Positions 3,540 to 19,011 of a stretch of DNA of 64,000 nucleotides are shown one piece after another. Every line of letters begins with the position of its first letter. The stretch's first letter is position 1. Below the pieces are notes generated by a model. That model was not told the origin of the DNA. It made no database searches and saw nothing but the letters and a program-made list of their open reading frames with translations. The stretch is from assembly GCF_006385175.1 (NCBI RefSeq), contig NZ_VFIY01000006.1:62001-126000 (forward strand). Direction: 5' to 3'. This DNA is from Emcibacter nanhaiensis. Lineage in GTDB: Bacteria; Pseudomonadota; Alphaproteobacteria; Sphingomonadales; Emcibacteraceae. The position numbers and the translations under genes are program-made.

Positions 3540-4151
3540 ATGACATCTCAGGATAAAAACGAACAGCACCGCGCAGAAATGAAAAAACAACAGGCCGCTC
3601 ATCGCAAAAAAATGGCGGGAAAAGAACAGCAGAAACGCGGCCTGCTGATGGTCAATACCGGCTCTGGCAAGGGCAAGACCACGGCCGCTTTCGGCACCAT
3701 CCTGCGTGCCTTGGGCTGGAGCAGAAAGGTAGGCGTGGTGCAGTTCATCAAGGGAAAATGGAAAACCGGGGAGCGTCTGTTTTTCAAACGCTTCGAGGAT
3801 ATGGTGGATTTCCGGGTGATGGGCGAAGGTTTTACCTGGGATACCCAGGACCGGGAACGGGATATTGCCGCAGCCCGCGCCGCCTGGGAAGTGGGGCTCG
3901 ACATGATGCGCAGCGGCGACTATGACCTGGTGGTGCTGGATGAACTGAATATTGTCCTGCGGAACGATTATCTGCCGGTTGAGGAAGTAATCAAGGGACT
4001 GTTATCCCGGCACAAAGACTGTTCCGTCTTTGTTACCGGCAGGGATGCGCCGCAGGAACTGATCGGGGTCGCTGACCTGGTGACGGAGATGACGAATGTC
4101 AAACATCCCTTTGACGCCGGGTTCCAGCCGGTGCGGGGCATTGATTTCTAG
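3540..4151 (+). CDS. cobO: corrinoid adenosyltransferase, CobO/CobA/BtuR type
   Basis: Transfers the 5'-deoxyadenosyl group of ATP to cob(I)alamin or cob(I)yrinic acid diamide. The 203-residue length is typical. The charged N-terminal helix is followed by a P-loop NTGSGKGKTTAAFG (about residues 39-52), then VVQFIKGKWKTGE and VVLDELNIVLRNDYL (Walker B-like), all diagnostic. It is the last gene of the + operon, 3 nt after cobD. Its TAG stop overlaps tail-to-tail with the stop of the opposite-strand cobC (shared CTAG), so no independent terminator fits between them. Confidence 0.95.
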   Translation: MTSQDKNEQHRAEMKKQQAAHRKKMAGKEQQKRGLLMVNTGSGKGKTTAAFGTILRALGWSRKVGVVQFIKGKWKTGERLFFKRFEDMVDFRVMGEGFTWDTQDRERDIAAARAAWEVGLDMMRSGDYDLVVLDELNIVLRNDYLPVEEVIKGLLSRHKDCSVFVTGRDAPQELIGVADLVTEMTNVKHPFDAGFQPVRGIDF

Positions 4152-4771
4152 ACCGCTCCGGTATGGTTGAGCCGCACCAGGCGCCAGTGCCCGCCGTGGA
4201 AATCTTTCGGGCTATATTGCAGGTGGGTCAGCGACAGGGTGTCGAGGGCGAAATTCAGGGCCAGGTCAGGCGACAGGCCAAGACAATATCCGAGGATCGC
4301 CCGGATGACCCCGGCATGGGTGATGATTACCCGTGGCGTTGACGATCCGGAACCAGTCTGGTCTTTCATAAAGTGGCTCGCCCGCTCACAAACGTCTGTG
4401 AAGGCTTCTCCGCCCGGCGGTAGGCTGTGTGCTGCCAACAGCGACCAGTTGTGGGGTGGGAGGCGCTTGATCTTTGGCCAAAGATGATCGAAATCCAGTC
4501 CGTACCAGTCGCCGAAATCCTGTTCTGTCAGCTGTGGCGACGAGGTCAGTTCTGCCGACCCGGGTTTTCGCTCCCTGAGCGCATCGGCCGTTTGCCGGGT
4601 CCGTTGCAACGGGCTTGAAAACCACTGCGCATGGTCGGGTAGTTGATCCGCCAGCCAGTCGAGAGAGACGGCATCGGACAGGTTCGCCGGTTCGTTACCG
4701 GACTTGTAGAGATGTTCCCGGGCGCCCGCAACCGGGGCATGGCGGACCAGATAATAATCGATGATACTCAT
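4148..4771 (-). CDS. cobC: alpha-ribazole phosphatase-like histidine phosphatase, CobC
   Basis: Histidine-phosphatase-family enzyme (207 residues from the chosen start) expected to remove phosphate from alpha-ribazole-5'-phosphate or adenosylcobalamin-5'-phosphate. The catalytic phosphohistidine motif is YLVRHAP at the N-terminus; SSPLQRTRQTADAL (second RHG-region arginine) and VIITHAGVIRAIL (second histidine) follow. I chose ATG 4771, which overlaps the cobS stop as ATGA; the frame is open further upstream but that would run deep into cobS and precede the conserved LVRH strand. Other phosphoglycerate-mutase-like activities cannot be excluded from sequence alone. Confidence 0.88.
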   Translation of the reverse strand: MSIIDYYLVRHAPVAGAREHLYKSGNEPANLSDAVSLDWLADQLPDHAQWFSSPLQRTRQTADALRERKPGSAELTSSPQLTEQDFGDWYGLDFDHLWPKIKRLPPHNWSLLAAHSLPPGGEAFTDVCERASHFMKDQTGSGSSTPRVIITHAGVIRAILGYCLGLSPDLALNFALDTLSLTHLQYSPKDFHGGHWRLVRLNHTGAV

Positions 4772-5568
4772 GACATGAAATGCCCGAAGGAGAGCAGGCC
4801 GAGCAATATGGCGATTTCGCTGATCTGCTGGATCGCGCCAAGGATGTCGCCGGTAATACCGCCCACCTGTTTGACGGCGAGTTTTCCCAGACTGTAGGCT
4901 ACAACAAGGGACAGCAGCAGGCACAGCAGGACGGCCGGCCACCGGAGCAGCAGCAAACCGGGCAGCAGGGCGATTCCGAGTGCCCCTGTGAGCCGGGCCG
5001 TTGTCGGCTTTTCCGTTTCGGCGGCGAGCCCGTCCTTGCGGGCGGGAGGGAATAAACGCAGGGCGAGCACAATCATCAGGCGGCTCATAGCACCGCTGAC
5101 CAGCAACGCTGCGATGGCGCCACTAACACTCATGGCAGCCAGGGCGACCGTCTTGAGGCCTATGGAAATCAGCAGGGCGAGGGCGCCGTATGTACCGACA
5201 CGGCTGTCGCGCATGATTTCCAGCTTGCGCTCCCGCGTCAGGCCGCCACCAAAACCGTCGGCCACATCGGCCAGCCCGTCTTCGTGAAAAGCGCCGGTGA
5301 ACGCCATCATGGCCGCCAGGGCCAGCAGGATAGAGACAAGGGGCGGCAGCAGAAGCATCTGGGCGCCCCAGTACATCAATCCGCCAACCGCGGAAACCAG
5401 CAAACCGACCAGCGGATAGGCCCAAAGGCTGCGGGAAATATCCGGCGGATGGTCTGATAATTTCTCCCATGATACAGGAAGGCGGGTCAGCACCATGAGG
5501 GCCGCCGCTATATCCCGGACCGGGGAGGGGCTTTTATGCTGCTTCTCTTCTTCCGTTGTTCCGGTCAT
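4768..5568 (-). CDS. cobS: adenosylcobinamide-GDP ribazoletransferase, CobS (cobalamin synthase)
   Basis: Polytopic membrane enzyme (266 residues) that joins adenosylcobinamide-GDP to alpha-ribazole(-phosphate). Diagnostic features are LTRLPVSWE near the N-terminus, the acidic metal-binding motif FHEDGLADVADGFGGG around residues 95-110, and RDSRVGTYGALAL. The rest is hydrophobic helices, ending with GGITGDILGAIQQISEI. It sits between cobT and cobC with 4-nt overlaps on both sides, giving one - operon cobU-cobT-cobS-cobC. Confidence 0.95.
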   Translation of the reverse strand: MTGTTEEEKQHKSPSPVRDIAAALMVLTRLPVSWEKLSDHPPDISRSLWAYPLVGLLVSAVGGLMYWGAQMLLLPPLVSILLALAAMMAFTGAFHEDGLADVADGFGGGLTRERKLEIMRDSRVGTYGALALLISIGLKTVALAAMSVSGAIAALLVSGAMSRLMIVLALRLFPPARKDGLAAETEKPTTARLTGALGIALLPGLLLLRWPAVLLCLLLSLVVAYSLGKLAVKQVGGITGDILGAIQQISEIAILLGLLSFGHFMS

Positions 5569-6590
5569 TGCAATGACCTCGACACATGGGCCTCTTCGAA
5601 ACTGGCCATGCCGTTATAGGTGGCGAGCGAGGCGCGTAGGATCATCAGGGCGACGGCGGCGCCGGACGCTTCCCCCAGCCGCATGTCCAGTTGCAGGATC
5701 GGTGATTTGCCGAGTGTCTCGATCAGATGGCGATGACCGGGCTCGACGGACAGATGGGACACCTGGCAGTGATCCAGTATATCCGGGGCGCTTATGGTCA
5801 GCGCGGCGGCCGCGGCGGTAGAGATAAACCCGTCCAGCAGGACCGGGGTCCGGTACTGGCGAGCGGCGATTACCGCGCCGGCAATCGCGGCCAGCTCGCG
5901 CCCGCCCAGGCAGCGCAGCAGCTCGAAGGAGTCACTGATTTCGGGACTGTGCCGGCGGACGGCTGTTTCCACAACCTCCGCCTTGTGGGCCAGTTTATCT
6001 TTCGCAAGCCCGGTGCCGCGGCCGGTCCATTGCCCACTGTCGCCGCCGAACAGCGCCAGCGACAGGGCTGCGGCGGCGGTGGTGTTGCCGATCCCCATTT
6101 CTCCCAGCAGCAGGCAATCACAGTCGTCCGGCACGGCGTCGGCACCGGTTTGCAGGGCCCGGCAAAGCTCTTCTTCGCTCATGGCCGGGGCTTTGGTGAA
6201 GTCAGCGGTCGGATGGTCGAGATCCAGGCTGATGACCCGCAGTTTTGCACCGGCGGCTATGCAGAGCTGATTGATGGCGGCGCCGCCATTCTCAAAATTC
6301 TGCACCATCTGTTTGGTGACTGCCGGCGGATAGGCAGAGATGCCCTGCGCCGTGACACCGTGGTTGCCGGCAAAGACCAGGCAGGATATCTGATTCAGTC
6401 GGGGGTGTTCTTTGCCCTGCCACCCGGCCATGAAAATGGAAAGTTCTTCCAGCTTGCCAAGGGATCCCTGCGGTTTGGTCAGACTGTCCTGACGGGTCCG
6501 GGCATAGTCCATGCATCTCCTGTCCGGTGCGGGCAGGTTGTCAAGGGCGCGGAAGAACTCTTCGCGGCTGTTGAGAGAAATCTTGCTCAC
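5565..6590 (-). CDS. cobT: nicotinate-nucleotide:dimethylbenzimidazole phosphoribosyltransferase, CobT
   Basis: Activates the lower ligand: transfers phosphoribose from nicotinate mononucleotide to dimethylbenzimidazole. About 341 residues from a GTG that overlaps the cobU stop (GTGA); an ATG 15 nt upstream (6605) is an alternative. Signatures include DSLTKPQGSLGKLEEL, FAGNHGVTAQGISAYP, GEMGIGNTTAAAAL and the C-terminal LDMRLGEASGAA, where the family's catalytic glutamate lies. It is flanked by cobU and cobS with translational overlaps. Confidence 0.95.
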   Translation of the reverse strand: MSKISLNSREEFFRALDNLPAPDRRCMDYARTRQDSLTKPQGSLGKLEELSIFMAGWQGKEHPRLNQISCLVFAGNHGVTAQGISAYPPAVTKQMVQNFENGGAAINQLCIAAGAKLRVISLDLDHPTADFTKAPAMSEEELCRALQTGADAVPDDCDCLLLGEMGIGNTTAAAALSLALFGGDSGQWTGRGTGLAKDKLAHKAEVVETAVRRHSPEISDSFELLRCLGGRELAAIAGAVIAARQYRTPVLLDGFISTAAAAALTISAPDILDHCQVSHLSVEPGHRHLIETLGKSPILQLDMRLGEASGAAVALMILRASLATYNGMASFEEAHVSRSLQ

Positions 6591-7159
6591 AGCCCTTCTC
6601 CCCAAGTGGGCCGGCCGTCCCGCTTCAGGACCATCGGCAGGCCGGCGGCCATGTAAAACACATGGTCCGCAGCCTGGGCTATATGCTGATTGAGGCGTCC
6701 GGCCTGGTCGCGGAAGCTCCGGGCCAGGGCATTGTCCGGTACGATGCCGAGCCCGACTTCGTTGCTGATCATGATGGCATTGCCCCGGTGGTGCTGAAGG
6801 ACCTCCACAAGCTTTTCTGTTTCATCGTCAATATCCAGTTGATGTTCCATCAGATTATTGAGCCACAGGGTCAGGCAGTCAATCAGGACGGTTTCCTGAC
6901 CTTTCAGCTGTTCGGCGATGGCCAGGGGTTCCTCTATGGTGATCCAGTGAGTGCCGCGATCGTTCTGGTGCTTTGCGATCCTGTCCCGCATTTCCTCGTC
7001 TCGAGATTCGGCGGTGGCGAGATAGGTTGGGCGATTGTCCAGAGCCAGCGCCAGCTGTTCGCCGAACCGGCTTTTGCCGGAGCGGGCGCCGCCGATGATG
7101 AGGCTGATACCGGAAAAGCGCTCAAGATTGTCGGAAATATTCTGTCTTGAATTGTTCAT
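6587..7159 (-). CDS. cobU: adenosylcobinamide kinase / adenosylcobinamide-phosphate guanylyltransferase, CobU (CobP)
   Basis: Bifunctional enzyme (190 residues) that phosphorylates adenosylcobinamide and then transfers GMP. The P-loop GGARSGKS spans residues 23-30; THWITIEEP carries the guanylylated-histidine region, and LIDCLTLWLNNLM and ISNEVGLGIVPDN are family signatures. It is the first gene of the - operon. No Shine-Dalgarno sequence precedes its ATG; a small frame with a perfect AGGAGG ends 19 nt upstream, so its translation may be coupled to that leader. Confidence 0.95.
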   Translation of the reverse strand: MNNSRQNISDNLERFSGISLIIGGARSGKSRFGEQLALALDNRPTYLATAESRDEEMRDRIAKHQNDRGTHWITIEEPLAIAEQLKGQETVLIDCLTLWLNNLMEHQLDIDDETEKLVEVLQHHRGNAIMISNEVGLGIVPDNALARSFRDQAGRLNQHIAQAADHVFYMAAGLPMVLKRDGRPTWGEGL

Positions 7160-7400: not shown

Positions 7401-7569
7401 TCTTTCCTCCTGACGCCCATCGCACCATTTCTCAAAAATCTGCTTAACTTTATTCCTTGCAAGGCAAGCCCCTGCAGGGTCCTGTTCCCGCTCGCGCAAG
7501 CCTTCCCATTACCGGCTAATCGAAAATAATTCGCAAAAACATCTTGCGCTGACCGGGCGAGTCATAATA

Positions 7570-7601
7570 TGTAACAACATAACAAATGTAACGTTATAAC
7601 A
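7570..7601. promoter_or_regulatory. two tandem Zur-like operator boxes
   Basis: TGTAACAACATAACA (7570-7584) and TGTAACGTTATAACA (7587-7601) are tandem copies 17 nt apart. Each matches 11 of 14 fixed positions of the proteobacterial Zur pattern TGTTATA-N-TATAACA, and the second has a perfect right half TATAACA. They sit 24-55 nt before the receptor start at 7625 in an AT-rich segment, where a repressor would block RNA polymerase. The match was made by eye against the remembered consensus. The boxes may also touch the divergent cobU promoter. Confidence 0.6.
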
Positions 7602-7624
7602 TATTATTTTATCAGGATTTACGC

Positions 7625-9553
7625 ATGTTTATGAATTTCAGGGGCGAGGGGCCATTCCCTTCCATTTTATTTTCTTCATTGTCAGTTTTTACCGCTCTTT
7701 CCGGCTCGGCCGCCGCAGAGGAAGCTGTGGAGGAGATTGTCGTCACTGCCACCAGCCACGAACAGTCTCTCCGTACGGCGCCGGCCAGTATATCCGTGGT
7801 AGACCGGCAGGATCTGGAACTGCGGTTCGTCGACGACCTGACCGATGCGCTTACAGCGGAGCAGGGGGTGACCGTGACGGCCGTCGGCCAGACCCGCAAG
7901 GGCATCAGCCTGCGCGGCATGCCGGTGGAGCATACCCTCTATCTTCTCGACGGTCGGCGCATCAGTTCAACCAACGGGGTGGTCGCCCATTCCGATTTCG
8001 AGCTAAGCTGGCTGCCGCCGAGCGCCATTGAACGGATCGAAGTGTTGCGCGGCCCCATGTCGTCGCTCTACGGCTCAGACGCGCTGGGCGGTGTGGTCAA
8101 TGTCATTACCCGGGTGCCGTCCAGCGAGTTTTCCGGCGAAGTGACCGCCGACGGCACCGTACTGGAACGCGGCGGCGATGGGTCTTCCTATAAATTCGGC
8201 GGTTATTTTGCAGGCCCGCTCATCCAGGACAAGCTGTCCTTTACCCTTGCCGGTCAGTTGTTTGACCGCGCCAACCTGCCGACTCCCGAGGATGACGCTG
8301 TTTCAGAAGTGGAAAGTCGGGAATCCCTGGCGGGCCGGGCGTCGCTGATCTGGACGCCGGTGGAAGGGCAGCGGGTAGACCTGGTCTACAGCCGCAGCGA
8401 GGATGACCGGGTGCGGGATACGGCACGCTATACCAATACGGACGATATTTCCCGGGAACAGATTGCGCTCAGCTACAATGGCAACTGGAGCTGGGGCGAT
8501 GTGAAATTCAATGCGTACCAGTCTTCCGCCAACCGGGACAACGAGCGCACCAACGGCAGTACGCCGACCCGGTCCCAGGGACTGGAGGATAATGTGGTTG
8601 ACGGCCACGTGTCCCTGAATGTTATTGACGGCAACCGTTTCACAGTCGGTGGCCAGCTTCGGGAAGAAAAGCTGTTCGATGATGTGGCGTCCGCCAGTGG
8701 AGTGACGACAGTTCAGCATAATTCTGTTTTTGTGCAGGATGAGGTTTCTGTGCTGGAAAAACTGTCGCTGGTCGGCGGCATCCGTTTCGATCATCATGAT
8801 GTCTACGGCTGGGAAAGCAGTCCCCGGCTCTATGCGGTCTATGAGGTAACGGACAATCTGGTCCTGAAGGGCGGTTACGGCGAAGGGTTCCGCGCCCCGT
8901 CCCTGACAGAGCTTTCTGCGGATTATCAGGTGCTCGCCGCCGGCGGCCGCTTCTGGGTCTTCGGCAATCCGGCGCTTGATCCCGAGCGCAGCAAAAGCTG
9001 GGAAATGAGTGTTCAGTATGACCGGGAAAGCTGGGCCGTCAGCGCCACCCTGTTCCAGAACGATCTGGAAAATCTGGTGCAGAGCGTCTGTGTTTCCGAT
9101 TGTGGTGTCCGGGGCCGGGAAATCCGCTATTACCAGAATGTGGACGAAGCCCGTATCAAAGGGATCGAACTGTCCCTGACGGTCCGGTTGACCGACGATC
9201 TGCAGCTGGACGGCAACTATACCTATCTGGATGCGGAAGATCGGGGAACTGGTAATCCGCTCGAATCCCGTCCGGAGCACAGCGGTAATATTTCCCTCAA
9301 CTGGCAGTTCATGGAGCAGGGCAACCTGAGGTTCCGTTCCGAATTTGTCGGCCGGCAATATGACAGTTCCGGGGAATATACGCCTACCTATAGCCTGCAT
9401 CACCTGGATTTTGTCATGCCGCTCAGGGATGGCCTGCTGGTCCGGGCCGGGATAGAGAATATTTTCGATGAACGGCTGGCGGAAAAATCAGATCTGTTCG
9501 GCCTGGCCGAACCCGGACGGCAATATCGTTTCGGCGTAACGGCGAGTTTCTGA
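7625..9553 (+). CDS. TonB-dependent receptor, probable metal or metal-chelate importer
   Basis: A 642-residue outer-membrane receptor: signal peptide to about residue 36 (SGSAAAEE), TonB-box-like EEIVVTAT, plug with KGISLRGMPVEHTLYLLDGRR and IERIEVLRGPMSSLYGSDALGG, then the beta-barrel ending VTASF. The plug is of the CirA/FepA/BtuB type. Downstream genes encode a CobN-like chelatase and an ExbB/ExbD-like pair, 3 nt and further on the same strand. The upstream Zur-like boxes suggest zinc-responsive expression, as for ZnuD-type receptors. Substrate (zinc chelate, metallophore, tetrapyrrole) is inferred only. Start ATG 7625 or ATG 7631. Confidence 0.88.
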   Translation: MFMNFRGEGPFPSILFSSLSVFTALSGSAAAEEAVEEIVVTATSHEQSLRTAPASISVVDRQDLELRFVDDLTDALTAEQGVTVTAVGQTRKGISLRGMPVEHTLYLLDGRRISSTNGVVAHSDFELSWLPPSAIERIEVLRGPMSSLYGSDALGGVVNVITRVPSSEFSGEVTADGTVLERGGDGSSYKFGGYFAGPLIQDKLSFTLAGQLFDRANLPTPEDDAVSEVESRESLAGRASLIWTPVEGQRVDLVYSRSEDDRVRDTARYTNTDDISREQIALSYNGNWSWGDVKFNAYQSSANRDNERTNGSTPTRSQGLEDNVVDGHVSLNVIDGNRFTVGGQLREEKLFDDVASASGVTTVQHNSVFVQDEVSVLEKLSLVGGIRFDHHDVYGWESSPRLYAVYEVTDNLVLKGGYGEGFRAPSLTELSADYQVLAAGGRFWVFGNPALDPERSKSWEMSVQYDRESWAVSATLFQNDLENLVQSVCVSDCGVRGREIRYYQNVDEARIKGIELSLTVRLTDDLQLDGNYTYLDAEDRGTGNPLESRPEHSGNISLNWQFMEQGNLRFRSEFVGRQYDSSGEYTPTYSLHHLDFVMPLRDGLLVRAGIENIFDERLAEKSDLFGLAEPGRQYRFGVTASF

Positions 9554-9556
9554 TCC

Positions 9557-12500
9557 ATGCGCGTCTTGTTGTTTTCCCTTTTGGGGCTGCTGGTCTGGGG
9601 CGTTTTTGCCCCGGACACGGCCTTTGCCGGCAACTCTAAGCCCGTTCATGTCACGGTGATCACTAATAACTTTGTCTTGCCGTCCAAGATCACGCGCCTC
9701 AGGGCCTGGGGACAGGACGCCGGGGTGCAGGTATCGGGCAAATATATCGAAACGGCAGAAGGGAAACCGCAGGACTGGCTCAGTGCCGATCTGGTGATCC
9801 TGGATACGCCGCGGGGCGGTGACCGGGCCCGGGTCATGGAGCATATGAAGGAGGCGCTTGAGGGCACAACCACGCCGTGGATTGTGGTAGGCGGGGGCAG
9901 GCCATTGTCCGGTAATCTGGACCGGGTGGTGGCCGGACGGTTATCTGCCTACTATGATGCGGGAGGCGAGGAAAATTTTGTCAATATGATGCGCTATATC
10001 TCCGCCTGGAAAGGGGGGGCGGATATGGCGTCGATTCCGGCCGCCGTGCCGCTGCCTGCGACCGGATTTTATCATCCGGACGCCCCGGTGCCTTTCGCTA
10101 CTTTGCAGGCCTATCTGGCCTGGGGCGAGAGGCGTTGGGAGGAGGATGCGCCGGTGATGGCGGTGGCCATTTCTTCCAGCTATCTATCCAATGCTCAGAC
10201 TAAGGTGCTTGAAGCCGTTGTGGACAAGGTGGAAGCGGCCGGCGGCATCCCCCTGCTGTTCTGGTTTAACTGGCGGCAGCCGGATGGGATTACTTCCATG
10301 ATTGCCGGGGCCAGTCCGGACATGCTCGTCAACATGACCCATATGCTGTCCGGCGACGCCCGCAAGAAAGAGTTTCTCGACCTTGATGTTCCGGTGGTGA
10401 TGGGCCTGACCCATCGGGCCGGTACCCCGGCGGACTGGCGTGAAGACCCCCAGGGAGTGGAGATGCGGACGGTGGCCTCCCTGATGGCGACGCCGGAAGG
10501 CTGGGGCATGAGCGATCCCCTGGTGCTGGGCGCCGTTGAAGACGGCGACCCGGTGCCGATAGAGGAGCAGCTCGACCTGTTGGTCGGACGGTTCATGAAG
10601 ATCGCAAGGCTTCGCCACTCCGATCCGCAGGAACGGAAGGTCGCGCTGTTGTTCTGGAACAGCCCCGGCGGCGAGAAGAACCTGTCTGCCTCCAATCTGA
10701 ATGTGCCGCAGAGTATCGAAAACATCATGTTCGACATGAAGAAAGCAGAATATGAACTTGATATACTTACGGAAAATGAGATTATTGAAAAGGCCCAAGC
10801 CATGCTGGGCGGCTACTACCGGCCGGAAACCCTGGACGAGCTGCTGATGAAAGGATGGGCGGTGTCCCTGCCGGTCAGCCGCTACCGGGAGTGGCTTGAC
10901 GGCCTGCCGGAAAAGATCTCCCGCGAGATGACAGACTACTGGGGGAAGCCGGAAGATCACTGGAGCGTGCGGAAGATTAACGGGGCGCAACAGTTCGTCA
11001 TTCCCATGGTGCAGACCGGAAAATTCCTGTTCACACCGCAGCCGCCGCGGGCGGACAAGGTCGGGGAAAGCACTCACGACCTGAAACAGCCGCCGGGACA
11101 TTTTTACATGGCCTTCTATCTCTATCTTCGAGAAATCTTTGGCAGCGATGCGATTATTCATCTCGGTACTCACGGCACCCAGGAATGGACGCCGGGCAAG
11201 GACCGCGGACTGTGGGCCCATGACTATCCCAACCTGGCGGTGGGCAATGTGCCGGTCCTTTACCCTTATATTCAGGACAATATCGGCGAGGCGATCCAGG
11301 CCAAGCGCCGGGGCCGGGCCGTGACCGTCAGTCACCAGACACCGGCCTTTGCGCCGTCCGGCTTTTATGACGAACTTCTGGATATGCATGACCTGATCCA
11401 TCAGTACCTACAGCTGGAGGAAGGGGCCGTGCAACAGGAGACGGCGGAGCGCCTGATCGGCTTGGTCAAAGAGTCTTCCCTGGACAAGGAGCTAGGCTGG
11501 AGCGAGGAAAAGATCCGGGAGGATTTCGAGGGTTTTATCCCCATTCTGCATGATCATTTGCACCAGCTGGCGCGGACCGCTGTGCCCATGGGCCTGCACA
11601 GCTTTGGCGAACCGGCCATCCCGGAACAGCGGATCACCACGGTGCTGCAACAGTCGGGCGACGACTATTACCGCGCCCTCGGCCTCGACCTCAAGGAAAT
11701 GTTCGGCGACAGTTTTGACGAACTTTACCAGAATGAAGCTTATCTGTTTCTGAAGAAATATGTGGACGGTGTGGCGGATTTCGCCGGGATCGCGGATCCG
11801 AACCTGCGCCAAATGATAGAGCAGGCGCTGGCGAACGAGCGGCACCTGGCCGAAGACGGGGAGATGGAGGCACTGCTCTCCGGTCTCAATGGCCGTTTTG
11901 TCCGCCCCGGCGTCGGCGGTGACCCGGTGCGTAATCCGCAATCCACCAGCGGCACCAATCTGTATGCCTTTGAGCCGGACAAGGTGCCGGCCAAGGCCGC
12001 CTACGAGGCTGCAGGTGAGGCCTTTGAGGAACTGGTGAAAAACTATCGGGCGGAACATGACGGCGCCTGGCCGGACAAGCTGGCCTTTTCACTGTGGTCG
12101 TCGGAAACCATCCGCACTCTCGGCATTATGGAGGGACAGGTGATGCATGCCCTTGGTGTGCGGCCGGTTTGGGATGCAGGCGGCCGGGTGGTCGATCTGG
12201 AGATCATTCCGGCGGAGGAGCTGGGCCGTCCCCGGGTCGATGCTGTGCTACAGGTGACCAGTGTTTACCGGGATCAGTTCGACGGTATCATGCGGTTGAT
12301 TGCCGGGGCGATTGAGGAGATTTCCGTGCTGGAGGAAAAGGACAATGCGGTAGCGGTGAACAGCAACAGGATTATCGCTCAGCTTAGAGAAGCGGGAGCA
12401 TCTGAAGCGGACGCCCGGCGTTACGCCGCCATTCGCATTTTCTCCAATCCTCCCGGCGACTACGGCAGCGGGGTCACGCAGGTGGCCATGGACCCCACAA

Positions 12501-13444
12501 GCTGGGACGACGACAGTATTCTGGCGGAAACCTTTTTCAACAGCCAGTCCCATGCCTATGGCACCAAAGACTGGGGTACACCGGTGCGGGGCATGGCTCT
12601 GTTTGAAAAGCAACTGAGTGGCGTTGATGCGGCGATCCTGTCCCGCTCCACCAACCTGCATGGGTTGTTGTCCACCGATCATCCCTTTGAGTATCTCGGC
12701 GGCTTGTCTGCCGCCTCCCGGGCGGTGAACGGGGAAAGTCCCGACCTGATCGTTTCCGATTATCGCGGCAAAAAGCCGAAAATGGCCAAGGCGTCGGCGT
12801 TCCTGTCCAATGAACTCCGCGTGCGCTACCAGAACCCGCAGTGGATCGGCGCCATGAAGGAAGAGGGCTATGCCGGCACGGTCAATATGCTGAAGGTGGT
12901 CAACAATCTGTTCGGCTGGCAGGTCATGGATGAGAGGATGGTGCGCGACGACCAGTGGCAGGCCATGCATGAAACCTATGTCATGGACAATCGGGACATG
13001 GGGCTCAATGAATGGTTCGAGGAGCACAATCCCACGGCCCAGGCCCAGATGATCGAGCGCATGGCCGAAGCCATCCGCAAGGGATACTGGGAGGCCAGCG
13101 AACAGACCCGCAGGGAACTGGCGGAACGCTGGCAGGATCTGGTGGCCAATCATCGGGCCGACCGGGGCGCGGACAAGACTGCGGCCTTCCTCGAGGAAAT
13201 GGCTGTGGGTTTCGGCCTCGGGGCTCCTACAACGGCGTCGGATACTGCACCGGATCAGCCGGCGGCGCAACAGCCCGCCGAGCCGGTGGAAAAGATACGC
13301 GGCCGGATCATGGAGCAGGTCCAGCCTGCCGAGCCGGATCCGTTGGCCTGGCTGTTCAATCTTGTGATCTGGCTGGGGCTTTTGTCCATCATTGGCGTAG
13401 GCGGTATTCATACCACCCGCCGCCACAAACAATACCAAGTGTAA
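9557..13444 (+). CDS. exported, membrane-anchored CobN-family chelatase-like protein
   Basis: A 1295-residue CobN/ChlH-superfamily protein. Family signatures include HLGTHGTQEWTPGKDRGLW (around residues 533-551), LYPYIQDNIGEAIQAKRRG and the C-terminal RSTNLHGLLSTDHPFEYLGG. Unlike the cytosolic cobaltochelatase subunit it has a signal peptide (residues 1-24, cleavage after AFA) and one C-terminal membrane helix (about 1264-1283) followed by a basic tail, so the body should be periplasmic. No CobS/CobT-type AAA+ partner is present; instead ExbB- and ExbD-like genes follow. This resembles what I recall of the Bacteroidetes HmuS dechelatase operons. A role in extracting or inserting a metal in the periplasm is inferred. 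Confidence 0.85.
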   Translation: MRVLLFSLLGLLVWGVFAPDTAFAGNSKPVHVTVITNNFVLPSKITRLRAWGQDAGVQVSGKYIETAEGKPQDWLSADLVILDTPRGGDRARVMEHMKEALEGTTTPWIVVGGGRPLSGNLDRVVAGRLSAYYDAGGEENFVNMMRYISAWKGGADMASIPAAVPLPATGFYHPDAPVPFATLQAYLAWGERRWEEDAPVMAVAISSSYLSNAQTKVLEAVVDKVEAAGGIPLLFWFNWRQPDGITSMIAGASPDMLVNMTHMLSGDARKKEFLDLDVPVVMGLTHRAGTPADWREDPQGVEMRTVASLMATPEGWGMSDPLVLGAVEDGDPVPIEEQLDLLVGRFMKIARLRHSDPQERKVALLFWNSPGGEKNLSASNLNVPQSIENIMFDMKKAEYELDILTENEIIEKAQAMLGGYYRPETLDELLMKGWAVSLPVSRYREWLDGLPEKISREMTDYWGKPEDHWSVRKINGAQQFVIPMVQTGKFLFTPQPPRADKVGESTHDLKQPPGHFYMAFYLYLREIFGSDAIIHLGTHGTQEWTPGKDRGLWAHDYPNLAVGNVPVLYPYIQDNIGEAIQAKRRGRAVTVSHQTPAFAPSGFYDELLDMHDLIHQYLQLEEGAVQQETAERLIGLVKESSLDKELGWSEEKIREDFEGFIPILHDHLHQLARTAVPMGLHSFGEPAIPEQRITTVLQQSGDDYYRALGLDLKEMFGDSFDELYQNEAYLFLKKYVDGVADFAGIADPNLRQMIEQALANERHLAEDGEMEALLSGLNGRFVRPGVGGDPVRNPQSTSGTNLYAFEPDKVPAKAAYEAAGEAFEELVKNYRAEHDGAWPDKLAFSLWSSETIRTLGIMEGQVMHALGVRPVWDAGGRVVDLEIIPAEELGRPRVDAVLQVTSVYRDQFDGIMRLIAGAIEEISVLEEKDNAVAVNSNRIIAQLREAGASEADARRYAAIRIFSNPPGDYGSGVTQVAMDPTSWDDDSILAETFFNSQSHAYGTKDWGTPVRGMALFEKQLSGVDAAILSRSTNLHGLLSTDHPFEYLGGLSAASRAVNGESPDLIVSDYRGKKPKMAKASAFLSNELRVRYQNPQWIGAMKEEGYAGTVNMLKVVNNLFGWQVMDERMVRDDQWQAMHETYVMDNRDMGLNEWFEEHNPTAQAQMIERMAEAIRKGYWEASEQTRRELAERWQDLVANHRADRGADKTAAFLEEMAVGFGLGAPTTASDTAPDQPAAQQPAEPVEKIRGRIMEQVQPAEPDPLAWLFNLVIWLGLLSIIGVGGIHTTRRHKQYQV

Positions 13445-13468
13445 GATTATTTTGAGTGAGTTTTCCCT

Positions 13469-13951
13469 ATGATGTTTTCCATTGATGCCTTTCTCTACAA
13501 CATCTCCAGTGTTTTCCTGATCCCGTCGTTGACGCTGATCCTGCTGGCGCTGGTCTATGCCCTTTATGCTTTGGGCAGCCTCATTTCCGAAGCGCTTCTG
13601 CGGCGCAAGGGAGCATTCAGGTCCGGTCTTTCCGGTTATGCCCGTGAGGCCGGGATCAACAGCGACGACCTGGAACTCTGGATCATGAAGCGGCTCGAGC
13701 TTTTGCGCCTGACGTCGCGGGTCTCACCGCTTCTTGGCCTGGTAGCGACCCTTATCCCCATGGGCCCGGCGTTGCTGGCGCTGACCGAAAATGATGCCTC
13801 CACGGTGGGGGAAAATATGGTGGTCGCTTTCGCCGGGGTGACCCTGGCCCTGATCGCCGCCAGCCTGACCTTCGCCGTACTCAATATCCGCCGCCGCTGG
13901 CTGCTGGAAGAGCTGCGCCTTATCGAGCGGGAAAGGGAAGGGGTAAACTGA
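13469..13951 (+). CDS. MotA/TolQ/ExbB-family proton-channel-like protein
   Basis: A 160-residue protein with three predicted membrane helices (about residues 15-38, 85-105, 114-137). The second contains RVSPLLGLVATLIPMGPAL, equivalent to the conserved glycine-rich helix of ExbB/TolQ/MotA; the loop between helices 1 and 2 and the C-terminal tail are charged and cytoplasmic. It overlaps the next gene at its stop. In this operon it would supply proton-motive force to the anchored CobN-like protein or the TonB receptor rather than serve as a general ExbB, which is an inference from gene order. Confidence 0.82.
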   Translation: MMFSIDAFLYNISSVFLIPSLTLILLALVYALYALGSLISEALLRRKGAFRSGLSGYAREAGINSDDLELWIMKRLELLRLTSRVSPLLGLVATLIPMGPALLALTENDASTVGENMVVAFAGVTLALIAASLTFAVLNIRRRWLLEELRLIEREREGVN

Positions 13952-14268
13952 TGGCAAACCGTTTCCTGGATATGGAGGATGACGACCCGATCCTGTCGGT
14001 GGTCAACCTGGTCGACATGTTTATTGTCATTATCGGTATCCTGATGGTGGTGCTTGTCAAGAACCCCTTCAATCCCTTTTCCAGCGACAACGCCATCCTG
14101 GTGGAAAACCCGGGCGAAGAGGACATGCGCATCACCATCAAAGACGGCAAGGAACTGACCCAGTATGAAAGCAGCGGCGAAATCGGTGAAGGTGAGGGGA
14201 TCAAGGCCGGCACCGCCTACCGCCTGCCGGACGGCCGCATGGTCTATGTGCCGGCGGCCGGCGAATGA
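13951..14268 (+). CDS. DUF2149-type protein, ExbD/TolR-like partner
   Basis: A 105-residue protein with one N-terminal membrane helix: DPILSVVNLVDMFIVIIGIL. The aspartate at position 22, just at the helix start, matches the essential aspartate of ExbD/TolR (LVDVMLVLL-type motif). The remainder is a small periplasmic domain (ITIKDGKELTQYES, YRLPDGRMVYVPA). It overlaps the ExbB-like gene and ends the operon before a terminator. DUF2149 assignment is from memory of the motif and of gene neighbourhoods with CobN homologues. Confidence 0.75.
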   Translation: MANRFLDMEDDDPILSVVNLVDMFIVIIGILMVVLVKNPFNPFSSDNAILVENPGEEDMRITIKDGKELTQYESSGEIGEGEGIKAGTAYRLPDGRMVYVPAAGE

Positions 14269-14477: not shown

Positions 14478-14801
14478 TTACGCCTGTGTCTCAGGAATCC
14501 TGACCTGGATGCCGTCCAATTCGGGCGATAGTTTTATCTGGCAACCAAGGCGACTGTTGGGAAGGCGGGGAGAGGCGACGTTGTCAAGCAACTGGTCTTC
14601 TGTTTCAGACAGCGGCGGAAGCCTGTCAAGAAAAGAGCTGTCTATATAACAATGGCAGGTGGCGCAGGCGCATGCTCCCCCGCAATCGCCATCTATGCCG
14701 TTGATATCATTCTGGGTGGCTGCTTCCATGAGCGATACATCTTCAGCAGCTGAAATTTCCCGTTCAGGTCCCTCGAATTCAATATAAGTCACTTTGATCA
14801 T
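14478..14801 (-). CDS. [2Fe-2S] ferredoxin, adrenodoxin/putidaredoxin type
   Basis: A 107-residue ferredoxin. Cluster ligands follow the adrenodoxin spacing: Cys40-x5-Cys46-x2-Cys49 (DCGGACACATC) and Cys87 (RLGCQIK). VTYIEFEGPEREI forms the N-terminal strand pair. Such ferredoxins feed electrons to P450s or Rieske-type oxygenases; no P450 is visible here, but a di-iron hydroxylase gene is encoded nearby on the same strand and would be a plausible acceptor. It is the last gene of this - group. The 14338-14477 spacer holds only a small stem TGCGAA/TTCGCA. Confidence 0.92.
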   Translation of the reverse strand: MIKVTYIEFEGPEREISAAEDVSLMEAATQNDINGIDGDCGGACACATCHCYIDSSFLDRLPPLSETEDQLLDNVASPRLPNSRLGCQIKLSPELDGIQVRIPETQA

Positions 14802-14847
14802 TTTCTATAAAACTCCACTTAAACAATCGTACTAAAGGTTTTGGCGG

Positions 14848-15396
14848 TCAGGGGTACAGTTTTGACAGGGGAAGCTCGGGTGTTTCCTCGCACCAGGCGA
14901 GGGACGAGCATTTCCACGCCCCTTCATGCTTCACCAGCTGAAAAGCATTGATGCCCCGGGCAATATGTTCTCCGTCATTGAAGACGGCTTCGTAAACATC
15001 GAAAACCTGGGCGACGCTGCCAAACTCCAGGATGGTCATCTTCAGGGAACGTTCATGCAGGGAATAGATGCCGTCGTTCCGGAAGGCTTCGCCAAAGAGG
15101 TCGAGGAAGGTGTCGGTGTCGACCAGCCGGACATCCTCACCCTCATCCCAGGCAAAGGTGGCCTCTGGGTGCATAACGGAGCGCATAAGATCTTTATCGA
15201 ACCAGCCCCCCTTGTCGAACCAGATCGCCTGGTACATCCGTTCAATGAAGGCGTGTATCGCTGTTTCATTTTTCGGAGAACTGACAGCTGAAGCCGCAGC
15301 GAGAGTGGCCAGAGAGGCCATACCTGTTCCCAGGGAACCCGCCAGGAAAAACCGGCGGGATAGGGTGGGGAATAACTGAGGAATTGATTTTTTCAT
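14848..15396 (-). CDS. exported SnoaL/NTF2-like protein with Tat signal
   Basis: A 182-residue protein. The N-terminus has a twin-arginine motif SRRFFLAG (residues 13-20) followed by a hydrophobic stretch, so export in folded form is likely. The mature part (FIERMYQAIWFDK ... FDKDLMRSVMHPEATFAWDEGEDV ... FQLVKHEGAWKCSSLAWCEE) has the cone-shaped alpha+beta pattern of SnoaL/NTF2-like polyketide cyclases and small-molecule isomerases. Substrate unknown. It lies between the ferredoxin and the sterol-desaturase-family gene on the same strand. Confidence 0.65.
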   Translation of the reverse strand: MKKSIPQLFPTLSRRFFLAGSLGTGMASLATLAAASAVSSPKNETAIHAFIERMYQAIWFDKGGWFDKDLMRSVMHPEATFAWDEGEDVRLVDTDTFLDLFGEAFRNDGIYSLHERSLKMTILEFGSVAQVFDVYEAVFNDGEHIARGINAFQLVKHEGAWKCSSLAWCEETPELPLSKLYP

Positions 15397-15449
15397 TTTT
15401 CCATTCCGTTGTCAGAAGTCGGTCAATCCGGTTGAAATGTTTGTTAAAT

Positions 15450-16367
15450 TTATTCTTTATAACCGGTAAGGGGTTTAATCATTTGCCCCAGGATGGACTT
15501 GGGCACCGGCGTGTCGGTGCCGACGACGTGAATTTGACGGCCCGGGCGGAAATGGGTTCCGAGCAGCACATCATAGACCATCAGGTTTTCGCCATAGTTG
15601 GTATTGCCTTCTTCAATGACGGTGGAATGGTGCCAGCGATGGACCCCCGGGGTATTGAAGATCCAGTCCAGAATGCCGAAACGCATTTCGATGTTACAAT
15701 GCGACAGGACGCCAACGAACATGGTGAAACAGGTAAACAGGAACATCAGCTCCGCTGGTGCGCCCAGCAGCAAGGGTAGGGGCAGGGCAAGCACGACGGT
15801 TTCGATAACATCAATCGTGTGAAATCTTCCCGTATTCAGCCAGTACAGTGAGGTCGCACTGTGATGCACAGCATGGAATCTCCACAAGAAGGGCACTTCG
15901 TGAGAAATGCGGTGCGCGGTATAAGATCCGGCTTCCCCGACAAACAGCAACAAGATGAATTGTGCCCAGACCGGCCAGTCAACAGGCCAGATTGATGCGG
16001 ACGTCAGTGTGGTCGACAGCATGACCAGCTTTGCAATCAGTGCGACCACTGCCGCTTCGACGACGGCGCCAACGACGATATAATTTACGATCGTGTGAAA
16101 GATATCATTGCCGATCTGGCCGTCGTTTTTGTTCCAGGAAGGCTCATGGGGCATGACCCGCTCCAGGATGGCGATGCATACGATCAGGACGAAATAGACC
16201 GAGAAAAGTGTGAGCACGGGATCAAGGCCCCTGTTGAGACCGGTGATGACAGCGAACATGCAGGAGGCCAGCAGGCCGGGCCATAGAATCCAGGACAGGA
16301 GATAACGGATTCCGCTGGACTGGGGGTAGTCTGTAACACGCGCTTCGGTTTCGATAGTGCTGCTCAT
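15450..16367 (-). CDS. sterol desaturase/fatty-acid hydroxylase-family membrane oxygenase
   Basis: A 305-residue membrane protein with several helices and the full set of histidine clusters of integral-membrane di-iron hydroxylases: HRISH (HX3H), HAVHH (HX2HH) and HRWHH (HX2HH). GEAGSYTAHRISHEVPFLWR and GVHRWHHS are typical of the ERG3/C-5 desaturase-like branch. It would use O2 and electrons, perhaps from the co-directional ferredoxin, to hydroxylate or desaturate a lipid or terpenoid. Substrate not identifiable. Confidence 0.88.
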   Translation of the reverse strand: MSSTIETEARVTDYPQSSGIRYLLSWILWPGLLASCMFAVITGLNRGLDPVLTLFSVYFVLIVCIAILERVMPHEPSWNKNDGQIGNDIFHTIVNYIVVGAVVEAAVVALIAKLVMLSTTLTSASIWPVDWPVWAQFILLLFVGEAGSYTAHRISHEVPFLWRFHAVHHSATSLYWLNTGRFHTIDVIETVVLALPLPLLLGAPAELMFLFTCFTMFVGVLSHCNIEMRFGILDWIFNTPGVHRWHHSTVIEEGNTNYGENLMVYDVLLGTHFRPGRQIHVVGTDTPVPKSILGQMIKPLTGYKE

Positions 16368-16488
16368 TTCAGTTAATCCCTATACTAATTTACTTTATCA
16401 CATGAGGTGGCTGGTTTCCCGGCATCTGCTGTCAGGAAACCCGTCGAGCAAATGCCGGAAAATTTAATATTCGGCTATAAAGCAGCCC

Positions 16489-18819: not shown

Positions 18820-19011
18820 GGACTGTTCCTCTTGTTTTGGCCCTTTATCCCTATGTTCCCGAATGTGTGCCGACATTCATAATTTCACTCGATCTTCATC
18901 CGGGTTCACAAATAGTAAATCAAAAATTTTCCTAAATGTCAAAAAATTTCTGAAAGGGAAAATATTTGGATGAGGTGTGAACTGAAACCTGACCTCCCGG
19001 TCTGCCGGAGT

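Follow-up and report, generated by a model that had tools for sequence, protein, structure and literature searches.

Analysis of a 64,000-nucleotide stretch of the Emcibacter nanhaiensis genome (the window) revealed a probably Zur-controlled operon in which a TonB-dependent receptor would import a metal chelate and an exported CobN-like enzyme would free the metal in the periplasm for uptake by ZnuABC, a reading on which we are evenly divided. Positions 7625-14268 (Table 1) encode the receptor and the CobN-like protein, the latter exported and anchored, followed by ExbB-like and DUF2149 proteins, and the ORF listing and Pfam recovered all four, including the TonB receptor beside the CobN-like gene, where the initial annotation had placed them. 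The receptor is CirA/BtuB-like, but fell below the cut-off in all 25 of the matches listed from the 34 NCBIfam models matched, and did not reach the BtuB model TIGR01779 (222.7 bits against a cut-off of 599.7). Promoter and terminator scans at the locus yielded nothing decisive. The NCBI model names such genes cobaltochelatase despite their signals for export and for control by zinc starvation.

Table 1. Features of the operon and its surroundings, in window coordinates.
Feature	Position	Strand	Basis
cobU, cobT, cobS and CobC-like phosphatase (context, divergent cobalamin assembly genes)	4148..7159	-	ORF listing, Pfam; phosphatase by eye
First Zur-type box ATGTAACAACATAACAA, 4 mismatches to ATGTTATANTATAACAT	7569..7585	+	mismatches counted by eye
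Second Zur-type box ATGTAACGTTATAACAT, 3 mismatches to ATGTTATANTATAACAT, abuts first	7586..7602	+	motif scan
TonB-dependent receptor, 642 aa	7625..9553	+	PF00593/PF07715
CobN-like exported class-I chelatase, 1295 aa	9557..13444	+	PF02514, NF004644
Putative signal peptide of CobN-like protein, residues 1-24	9557..9628	+	hydropathy; A-x-A by eye
His539 codon of CobN-like protein, in HLGTHG, equivalent to catalytic HmuS His538	11171..11173	+	alignment
His1042 codon of CobN-like protein, in STDHPFEYLGG, equivalent to HmuS His1209	12680..12682	+	alignment
C-terminal membrane anchor of CobN-like protein, residues 1263-1281	13343..13399	+	hydropathy
ExbB/TolQ/MotA-like protein, three hydrophobic segments, 160 aa	13469..13951	+	PF01618, hydropathy, alignment
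DUF2149 protein, 105 aa, one helix, invariant Asp22	13951..14268	+	PF09919, alignment

The CobN-like protein matched PF02514 at 974 bits (E 1.2e-292) and NF004644 at 1690 bits, above the cut-off. Its N-terminus is hydrophobic and ends in an A-x-A site read by eye (MRVLLFSLLGLLVWGVFAPDTAFA followed by G), and hydropathy places a hydrophobic helix at its C-terminus. The signal peptide and anchor first proposed for this protein were therefore upheld on hydropathy, and both are kept family-wide, with 82 of 87 CobN-like proteins passing the N-terminal threshold and likewise 82 of 87 the C-terminal one, each an ad hoc cut-off. Residues 25-1224 gave a predicted fold (pLDDT 85.7, pTM 0.82) to which Foldseek placed HmuS closest (9d26, TM 0.84), followed by CobN (7c6o, TM 0.77). 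VIA-align of the same model ranked CobN (Z 50.8) over HmuS (Z 41.0), an order that is unexplained, and because of this ranking the fold alone cannot decide between the two.

HmuS was also the best PDB match in sequence, and its operon in Bacteroidetes had been rightly named as the nearest precedent. At the active site, the CobN-like protein agrees with HmuS, a Bacteroidota heme de-chelatase, rather than with CobN. His538 of HmuS, in HFG(T/A)HG, corresponds to His539 here (H in 87/87 family members), His1209 to His1042 (H in 82/87, D in 5/87), Glu1212 to Glu1045 (E in 85/87) and the site-1 heme ligand His254 to His262 (H in 80/87), and in the alignment His/Glu stand at sites where M. tuberculosis CobN has Asp/Gln. 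The strict HmuS motif LSLDHxxEFMGG is absent from the protein, which reads LSTDHPFEYLGG. The class-I chelatases CobN and ChlH share its fold and HxGxHG loop, but differ in being cytosolic, in inserting metal and in having AAA+ partners, CobST or ChlID. Hydropathy, PF02514 and the HmuS-type residues thus support an exported, anchored class-I chelatase other than classical CobN. Of the two directions initially allowed, removal or insertion of a metal, these residues would favour removal.

Two tandem Zur-type boxes lie 22-56 nt upstream of the receptor gene, the second being the sole match with up to three mismatches in the window, where 0.05 were expected. The same motif is found in this genome upstream of znuA, zur-znuC, a znuD-like receptor and a TonB-TonB-ExbD cluster; the best NCBIfam match of the FUR-family gene before znuC was Zur (93 bits, below the cut-off of 167). 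Boxes were no more numerous genome-wide than matches to a reversed-motif control (14 against 15), and it is their placement, rather than their genome-wide number, that is telling. Among relatives, a box with up to four mismatches preceded 59 of 79 operons, as against 4 of 395 shuffles, which, like those of the Fur-box scan, preserve base composition and not dinucleotides, and 35 of the 676 regions lying before other ORFs, some of which may share a box with a neighbouring gene. This count used HMM-based starts. A recheck at corrected starts of all eleven loci with at least six mismatches added five (64/79) and left 15 of 79 operons without such a box, but 59/79 is kept as the headline because only failures were rechecked, nine loci with five mismatches staying at their original starts. 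The boxes point to control of the operon by zinc starvation through Zur, and so sharpen the initial annotation.

The arrangement itself is conserved. A same-strand receptor upstream of the CobN-like gene, with ExbB and DUF2149 downstream, was found in 62 of 80 relatives, so that the neighbourhood search suggested earlier for CobN, ExbB-like and DUF2149 genes in Proteobacteria returned a conserved set that includes the receptor. The apparently Zur-linked four-gene set is family-wide and spans alpha-, beta- and gammaproteobacteria. Apart from antisense frames and the operon genes themselves, the recurring neighbours that look meaningful are of just two kinds, a COG0523-type GTPase, at 13/84 loci, and a Zur-like gene, at 5/84 (both named by eye). 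No inner-membrane chelate importer was found among the recurring neighbours of the relatives' loci. A recurrent ABC ATPase cluster (17 loci) proved to be a mixture.

In P. aeruginosa, PA1922-PA1925, as far as the excerpted literature describes it, matches this operon in order (receptor, CobN-like, proton-channel-family and small protein) and in Zur control, the order being that of the published text and the PA proteins themselves standing outside our alignments. Both that gene order and a Zur-type box are found here. The same-order operon is up 45-147-fold in a P. aeruginosa znuA mutant (PMC4542158), and Zur binds its promoter by EMSA (PMC8531726). In those excerpts the set is discussed for P. 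aeruginosa alone and is annotated as cobaltochelatase and ExbD, without an assigned function, whereas here it appears as a family-wide Zur-linked set. Published P. aeruginosa work leans to import of free zinc or cobalt, not of a tetrapyrrole. Zur control of PA1922 has been printed as seemingly unique to P. aeruginosa (PMC10393844), a view that the conservation of the box in relatives contradicts. The present analysis extends the operon to three proteobacterial classes and gives the orphan P. aeruginosa Zur operon a testable function.

Under zinc starvation, we envisage that the repressor would leave both boxes and the four proteins would be made. The receptor would carry a metal chelate into the periplasm, most likely a zinc (possibly a cobalt) tetrapyrrole, and the anchored CobN-like protein would hold it between His539 and His1042, as HmuS is thought to hold heme, and protonate the ring, upon which the divalent metal would be released. 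In this scheme we infer the direction of the reaction, the metal and the chemistry of the chelate. ZnuABC, whose genes lie at another place in the genome, would then import the bare metal; in B. theta, freed iron is drawn as passing to a separate importer (PMC12583661). The weakest step concerns the ExbB-like/DUF2149 pair, which as a small proton channel may power conformational changes of the chelatase in place of a cytosolic AAA+ motor, the periplasm being a compartment without ATP. The scheme raises two questions: do bacteria in nature draw zinc from zinc tetrapyrroles, and can a chelatase run on a proton channel where ATP is lacking? The second is left open by a recent HmuS paper, in the part accessible (PMC13227078).

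The ExbB-like protein matched PF01618 (26.9 bits, cut-off 22.9) and has three hydrophobic segments by hydropathy, in keeping with the three helices first described. Its partner matched PF09919 (88 bits), and Asp22 of the partner, invariant in 16/16 sequences, lies about ten residues into a helix predicted at 13-37 (the model is poor outside it, pLDDT 57). The ExbD-style aspartate announced earlier is therefore conserved, but near the start of the helix rather than at it. The label of an ExbB/ExbD-like motor found no support for the DUF2149 half: Pfam gave PF09919 alone and no PF02472, and two hhalign comparisons with ExbD profiles, built on shallow alignments and in one case on a DUF2149 set that included some spurious frames, gave insignificant probabilities of 1.3% and 8%. 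A comparison of the ExbB-like protein with DUF2149 found no relation. Opposite what we take to be the pore glutamate position of ExbB, the alignment places an asparagine. The ExbB-ExbD, TolQ-TolR and MotA-MotB motors likewise join a PF01618 membrane protein to a one-helix partner with an Asp, but differ in that the partner here is DUF2149, with ExbD homology undetected.

It is plausible, as we infer, that this pair powers the chelatase. It could instead serve only the receptor, as an accessory TonB motor, with the CobN-like enzyme needing no proton energy, since purified HmuS is active with NADH; this is a credible competitor, though we hold it to be rather less probable. In most relatives the pair sits in the receptor operon, and HmuU/HmuV are drawn as powering HmuR (PMC12583661). 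However, the operon has no TonB protein, and the genome has the separate TonB-TonB-ExbD cluster behind Zur-type boxes. DUF2149 adjoins a CobN-like gene in 9/9 assessable above-cut-off loci, it is present in Methanosarcina acetivorans, which has no outer membrane, and on a Comamonadaceae plasmid ExbB-DUF2149-CobN occurs with no receptor found within 15.7 kb. In methanogens, DUF2149 has been linked to TolQ (PMC9425974). By tblastn, L036 has a full receptor and L131 keeps a 78-residue remnant, and therefore L130 alone counts as receptor-free. Two below-cut-off DUF2149 matches (G058 and G198), without a CobN-like, ExbB-like or DUF2149 tblastn match, were set aside as chance.

The chelate could also be a cobalt complex, with cobalt standing in for zinc under zinc starvation, which we think unlikely. 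P. aeruginosa has Zur-controlled pyochelin-cobalt import and cobalt rescue (PMC11481552; PMC13083405), its znuA mutant showed raised cobalt (PMC4542158), and cobalamin assembly genes adjoin the operon here. Loss of znuA was, however, also reported to leave cobalt content unaffected (PMC11481552), and when the six cob genes of the window were compared with 88 loci, BtuR alone matched a Zur-type relative, in L064, the rest matching L037 or L040. No cobalamin riboswitch was found within the window, and the riboswitch-linked L040 lies on a different branch.

A heme de-chelatase or heme-handling protein supplying iron would account for the HmuS-like catalytic residues, and Zur is no bar to it, as Neisseria ZnuD, in the available part of PMC8129501, is under Zur and Fur yet promotes heme uptake. 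The hmuYRSTUV operon of Bacteroidota (also BtuS, a name from Rodionov 2003 as quoted in the accessible portion of PMC6460266) likewise has an exported, anchored CobN-like protein, a receptor, ExbB-like and DUF2149 proteins and a bis-histidine site. Unlike the present operon, it handles iron and heme and is iron- rather than zinc-linked, with HmuY, HmuT, Met79 and a methionine-rich insertion. The column of Met79, a site-1 heme ligand of HmuS, holds Pro85 here, and Met occurs in 0/22 Zur-type rows (so named by descent in the tree and not by box, L045, L049, L090 and L115 being without one at up to four mismatches), in 2/3 Bacteroidota rows and in 2/2 BchH rows, the last perhaps by chance. The long insertion, compared by length and not by Met content, is also absent: the flanking columns enclose 66 residues here, 129-318 in three rows from Bacteroidota and 109-111 in three classical CobN. 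With Met79 and the long insertion missing, the CobN-like protein is therefore no HmuS. The boxes are of Zur type, and because no Fur-type box stands out upstream of this operon and Met79 is lost, heme is the less likely metal source of this copy; it is the other CobN-like copy in the genome that is linked to a heme/hemoglobin receptor, with a Fur-like box. We judge the heme reading quite improbable.

A cobaltochelatase for B12 synthesis, as in the NCBI annotation, is hardly tenable in spite of the NF004644 match and an orphan CobST in the genome: the protein is exported by hydropathy and hence not cytosolic, its His/Glu replace the Asp/Gln of M. tuberculosis CobN, the genome's other CobN homologue is exported as well, and CbiC/CobH (PF02570), one marker for corrin-ring synthesis, was not found in that genome (0/1, 98.7% complete). 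The initial claim that CobS and CobT are absent holds for the operon but not for the genome, where CobT scores above its Pfam cut-off beside an AAA gene read as CobS.

Tentatively, and with some doubt, the periplasmic de-chelatase proposed here may exemplify a PMF-driven class in which a CobN-type enzyme has an ExbB-like/DUF2149 channel for its AAA+ motor and has diversified by metal, into Zur-boxed zinc, Fur-boxed, heme-receptor-linked iron and cobalamin-riboswitch-linked cobalt/corrinoid forms, the first two of which would coexist in this genome. The third, distant subtype (L040) sits behind its riboswitch on a separate branch, with other motifs.

Four genes with little space between them form the operon, preceded by a pair of boxes of the zinc-starvation repressor (Zur) type. 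The initial annotation had described the CobN-like protein as exported and membrane-anchored, and this was borne out by hydropathy analysis, which revealed an N-terminal signal peptide of typical form (cleavage site placed by eye) and a membrane helix at the C-terminal end. The N-terminal and C-terminal thresholds were each passed by 82 of the 87 CobN-like proteins compared, some of the failures being sequences cut by contig ends, and export is hardly in doubt. The structure predicted for residues 25-1224 (pLDDT 85.7, pTM 0.82) had as best Foldseek matches HmuS, the heme de-chelatase of Bacteroidota (9d26, TM 0.84), and CobN (7c6o, TM 0.77), whereas VIA-align placed CobN first (Z 50.8) and HmuS below it (Z 41.0). 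The predicted fold is therefore that of a class-I chelatase and offers no choice between the two; HmuS, earlier put forward as the nearest precedent, keeps the top Foldseek match and yields to CobN in VIA-align.

Features of the operon, its surroundings and the related loci
Feature	Position	Strand	Length	Remark
Two abutting Zur-type boxes	window 7569-7602
TonB-dependent receptor	window 7625-14268 (operon)	+	642 aa	first gene
CobN-like protein	window 7625-14268 (operon)	+	1295 aa	second gene
ExbB-like protein	window 7625-14268 (operon)	+	160 aa	third gene
DUF2149 protein	window 7625-14268 (operon)	+	105 aa	fourth gene
2Fe-2S ferredoxin	window 14478-18876	-		adjoins operon
Sterol-desaturase-like protein	window 14478-18876	-		named by eye
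Large TonB-dependent receptor	window 14478-18876	-		another; receptor-profile match
TonB-TonB-ExbD cluster (L143)	G000:C5 344430-345979			host genome
Orphan CobST (L005)	G000:C5 ~498 kb			host genome
Second system, contig C14	L003:9094-17739			host genome
Riboswitch-flanked gene sets	L040:3596-9340			divergent
CobN-like gene	L132 4156-8358			Marinobacter plasmid
Receptor remnant	L131:4685-4918		78 residues	Azospirillum brasilense Sp7 plasmid

NCBIfam assigns the protein, above cut-off, to cobaltochelatase subunit CobN. It is not a B12 enzyme, because both PF02514 proteins of the host genome carry export signals and precorrin-8X methylmutase was not found there (0/1) by a search that was positive in 7 of 14 control genomes. 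The cob genes adjoining the operon are those of late assembly (aminotransferase, adenosyltransferase, CobS, CobT, CobU). The AAA+ partners CobS/CobT had been called absent, which holds for the operon only, since CobT with an adjacent AAA gene, read as CobS, lies elsewhere in the genome. This orphan CobST occurs in a genome without a cytosolic CobN, in which no CbiC/CobH was found.

The second box is the sole match at ≤3 mismatches in 64 kb, where 0.05 would be expected; genome-wide, Zur-type matches showed no excess over the reversed motif (14 versus 15 places). Zur-type boxes also lie upstream of a ZnuA gene and of a FUR-family gene (best NCBIfam match Zur, under its cut-off), whose downstream neighbours are an ABC ATPase, taken to be znuC, and an ORF taken to be znuB; two boxes each precede a histidine-rich znuD-like receptor (named by eye) and, 2 nt apart, the TonB-TonB-ExbD cluster. 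This cluster, in which a pair of TonB genes is accompanied by an ExbD gene, is possibly a zinc-responsive TonB motor.

Upstream regions of the relatives' operons (the best 80 of 384 relatives, with four further loci, the host's own among them, added and five too-short ones dropped) contained a box at ≤4 mismatches in 59 of 79 cases, as against 4/395 shuffles and 35/676 upstream regions of other ORFs from the same loci; correction of the start in all eleven loci with ≥6 mismatches raised this to 64/79. A COG0523-type GTPase and a Zur-like gene, both named by eye, were present in 13 and 5 of 84 loci, respectively. Zur control of the operon is thus very likely. According to the accessible parts of the published work, the P. 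aeruginosa operon of the same gene order, PA1922-PA1925, is up 45-147-fold in a znuA mutant (PMC4542158), Zur binds the PA1922 promoter in shift assays (PMC8531726), and PA1922 is more abundant under zinc depletion (PMC11761036); in the text seen, the Zur-linked operon is treated in P. aeruginosa and given no assigned function. In P. plecoglossicida, said to lack Zur, cobN and exbD did not respond (PMC8129501, in part). The portion consulted of PMC10393844, which searched 150 bp, holds Zur control of PA1922 to be seemingly unique to P. aeruginosa; the box found 376-512 nt upstream of the receptor start in 7/8 Stutzerimonas loci (starts chosen by script) falls outside that range. The portions of the open-access literature searched held no paper joining Zur, CobN-like chelatases and DUF2149 as one family.

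The receptor would bring in a metal chelate, from which the CobN-like protein would strip the metal in the periplasm for uptake by ZnuABC. We lean towards de-chelation rather than insertion, and zinc rather than cobalt is the probable metal. In HmuS, the available text of PMC12583661 describes His538 as essential and as meeting His1209 in a cavity with Glu1212; His539, His1042 and Glu1045 of the CobN-like protein align with these residues; at the latter two positions M. tuberculosis CobN carries Asp and Gln instead. All 87 sequences have His at position 539, whereas at 1042 a His is found in 82 of them and an Asp in the other five, namely the three heme-receptor-linked copies, the riboswitch-linked L040 and L115, a locus also without a Zur box. 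His262, the counterpart of HmuS His254, is conserved in 80/87. In contrast, the long insertion of HmuS is missing, and its Met79 is replaced, with Met in 0/22 Zur-type rows (labelled by descent), 2/3 Bacteroidota rows and 2/2 BchH rows. Zinc being redox-inert, an enzyme that strips zinc from its chelate could presumably do without the reduced heme of site 1, which Met79 helps to keep in place. Heme as substrate of the operon's protein, made slightly more likely by a Zur-Fur passage in the part seen of PMC8129501, is improbable.

The proposed conserved neighbourhood was recovered, with the receptor upstream and the ExbB-like and DUF2149 genes downstream on the same strand in at least 62 of the best 80 of 384 relatives. 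In a tree of 38 rows, 28 of the 29 pair-linked Pseudomonadota rows formed one clade (100/100), within which the Zur-type rows and an Azospirillum plasmid copy were nested (100/100); HmuS adjoins this clade with weak support (84/76). Within the host's class PF02514 occurs in 153/372 genomes and DUF2149 in 9/385 (seven over cut-off). A CobN-like gene lies beside all nine assessable above-cut-off DUF2149 loci (the host's two and those of G266, G227, G135, G183, G287, G386 and G387), a tenth, G127, being left out as its contig ends there.

That the ExbB-like/DUF2149 pair drives the chelatase, as initially suggested, is rather doubtful. No ExbD homology of DUF2149 was detected by Pfam or profile comparisons, and in the alignment an asparagine lies opposite what we take to be the pore glutamate of ExbB. 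In favour of a motor for the chelatase, DUF2149 keeps to the vicinity of CobN, the operon has no TonB, and the host has a TonB/ExbD cluster elsewhere behind Zur-type boxes of its own. In addition, the triad occurs on a Comamonadaceae plasmid with no receptor found within 15.7 kb, and DUF2149 is present in Methanosarcina acetivorans, methanogen DUF2149 being linked to TolQ in the text seen of PMC9425974. Against it, the authors of the HmuS study regard HmuU/HmuV as serving the receptor (PMC12583661, in part). The accessible part of PMC13227078 leaves room for an influence of HmuT, HmuU and HmuV on the activity of HmuS.

Other versions of the system were also observed. On host contig C14, ExbB-DUF2149-CobN diverges from a receptor gene whose product passes the NCBIfam cut-off of the heme/hemoglobin receptor family; the upstream scan gave no Zur box and a Fur-like box with 5 mismatches, equalled in 1% of shuffles. 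The related loci L041 and L042 show the same pattern (Fur, 1% and 2.5% of shuffles). The second active-site His of the C14 protein is Asp, and the system includes two small proteins that are hydrophobic at the N-terminus and matched no family. At L040, a cobalamin riboswitch lies directly 5' of CobN-ExbB-DUF2149; riboswitches stand on both sides, one arm holding a receptor and a cobyrinate-synthase-like gene (by eye) and the other the exported CobN-ExbB-DUF2149. As L040 falls outside the clade, grouped with a Marinobacter B12-cluster protein, the riboswitch version appears distant and may have joined with the pair separately. The L132 CobN-like protein on the L040 branch has a signal-peptide-like N-terminus and is encoded within a cobalamin uptake and synthesis cluster. 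At L131, the matched receptor is a remnant only, and the CobN-ExbB-DUF2149 set that follows it is otherwise complete.
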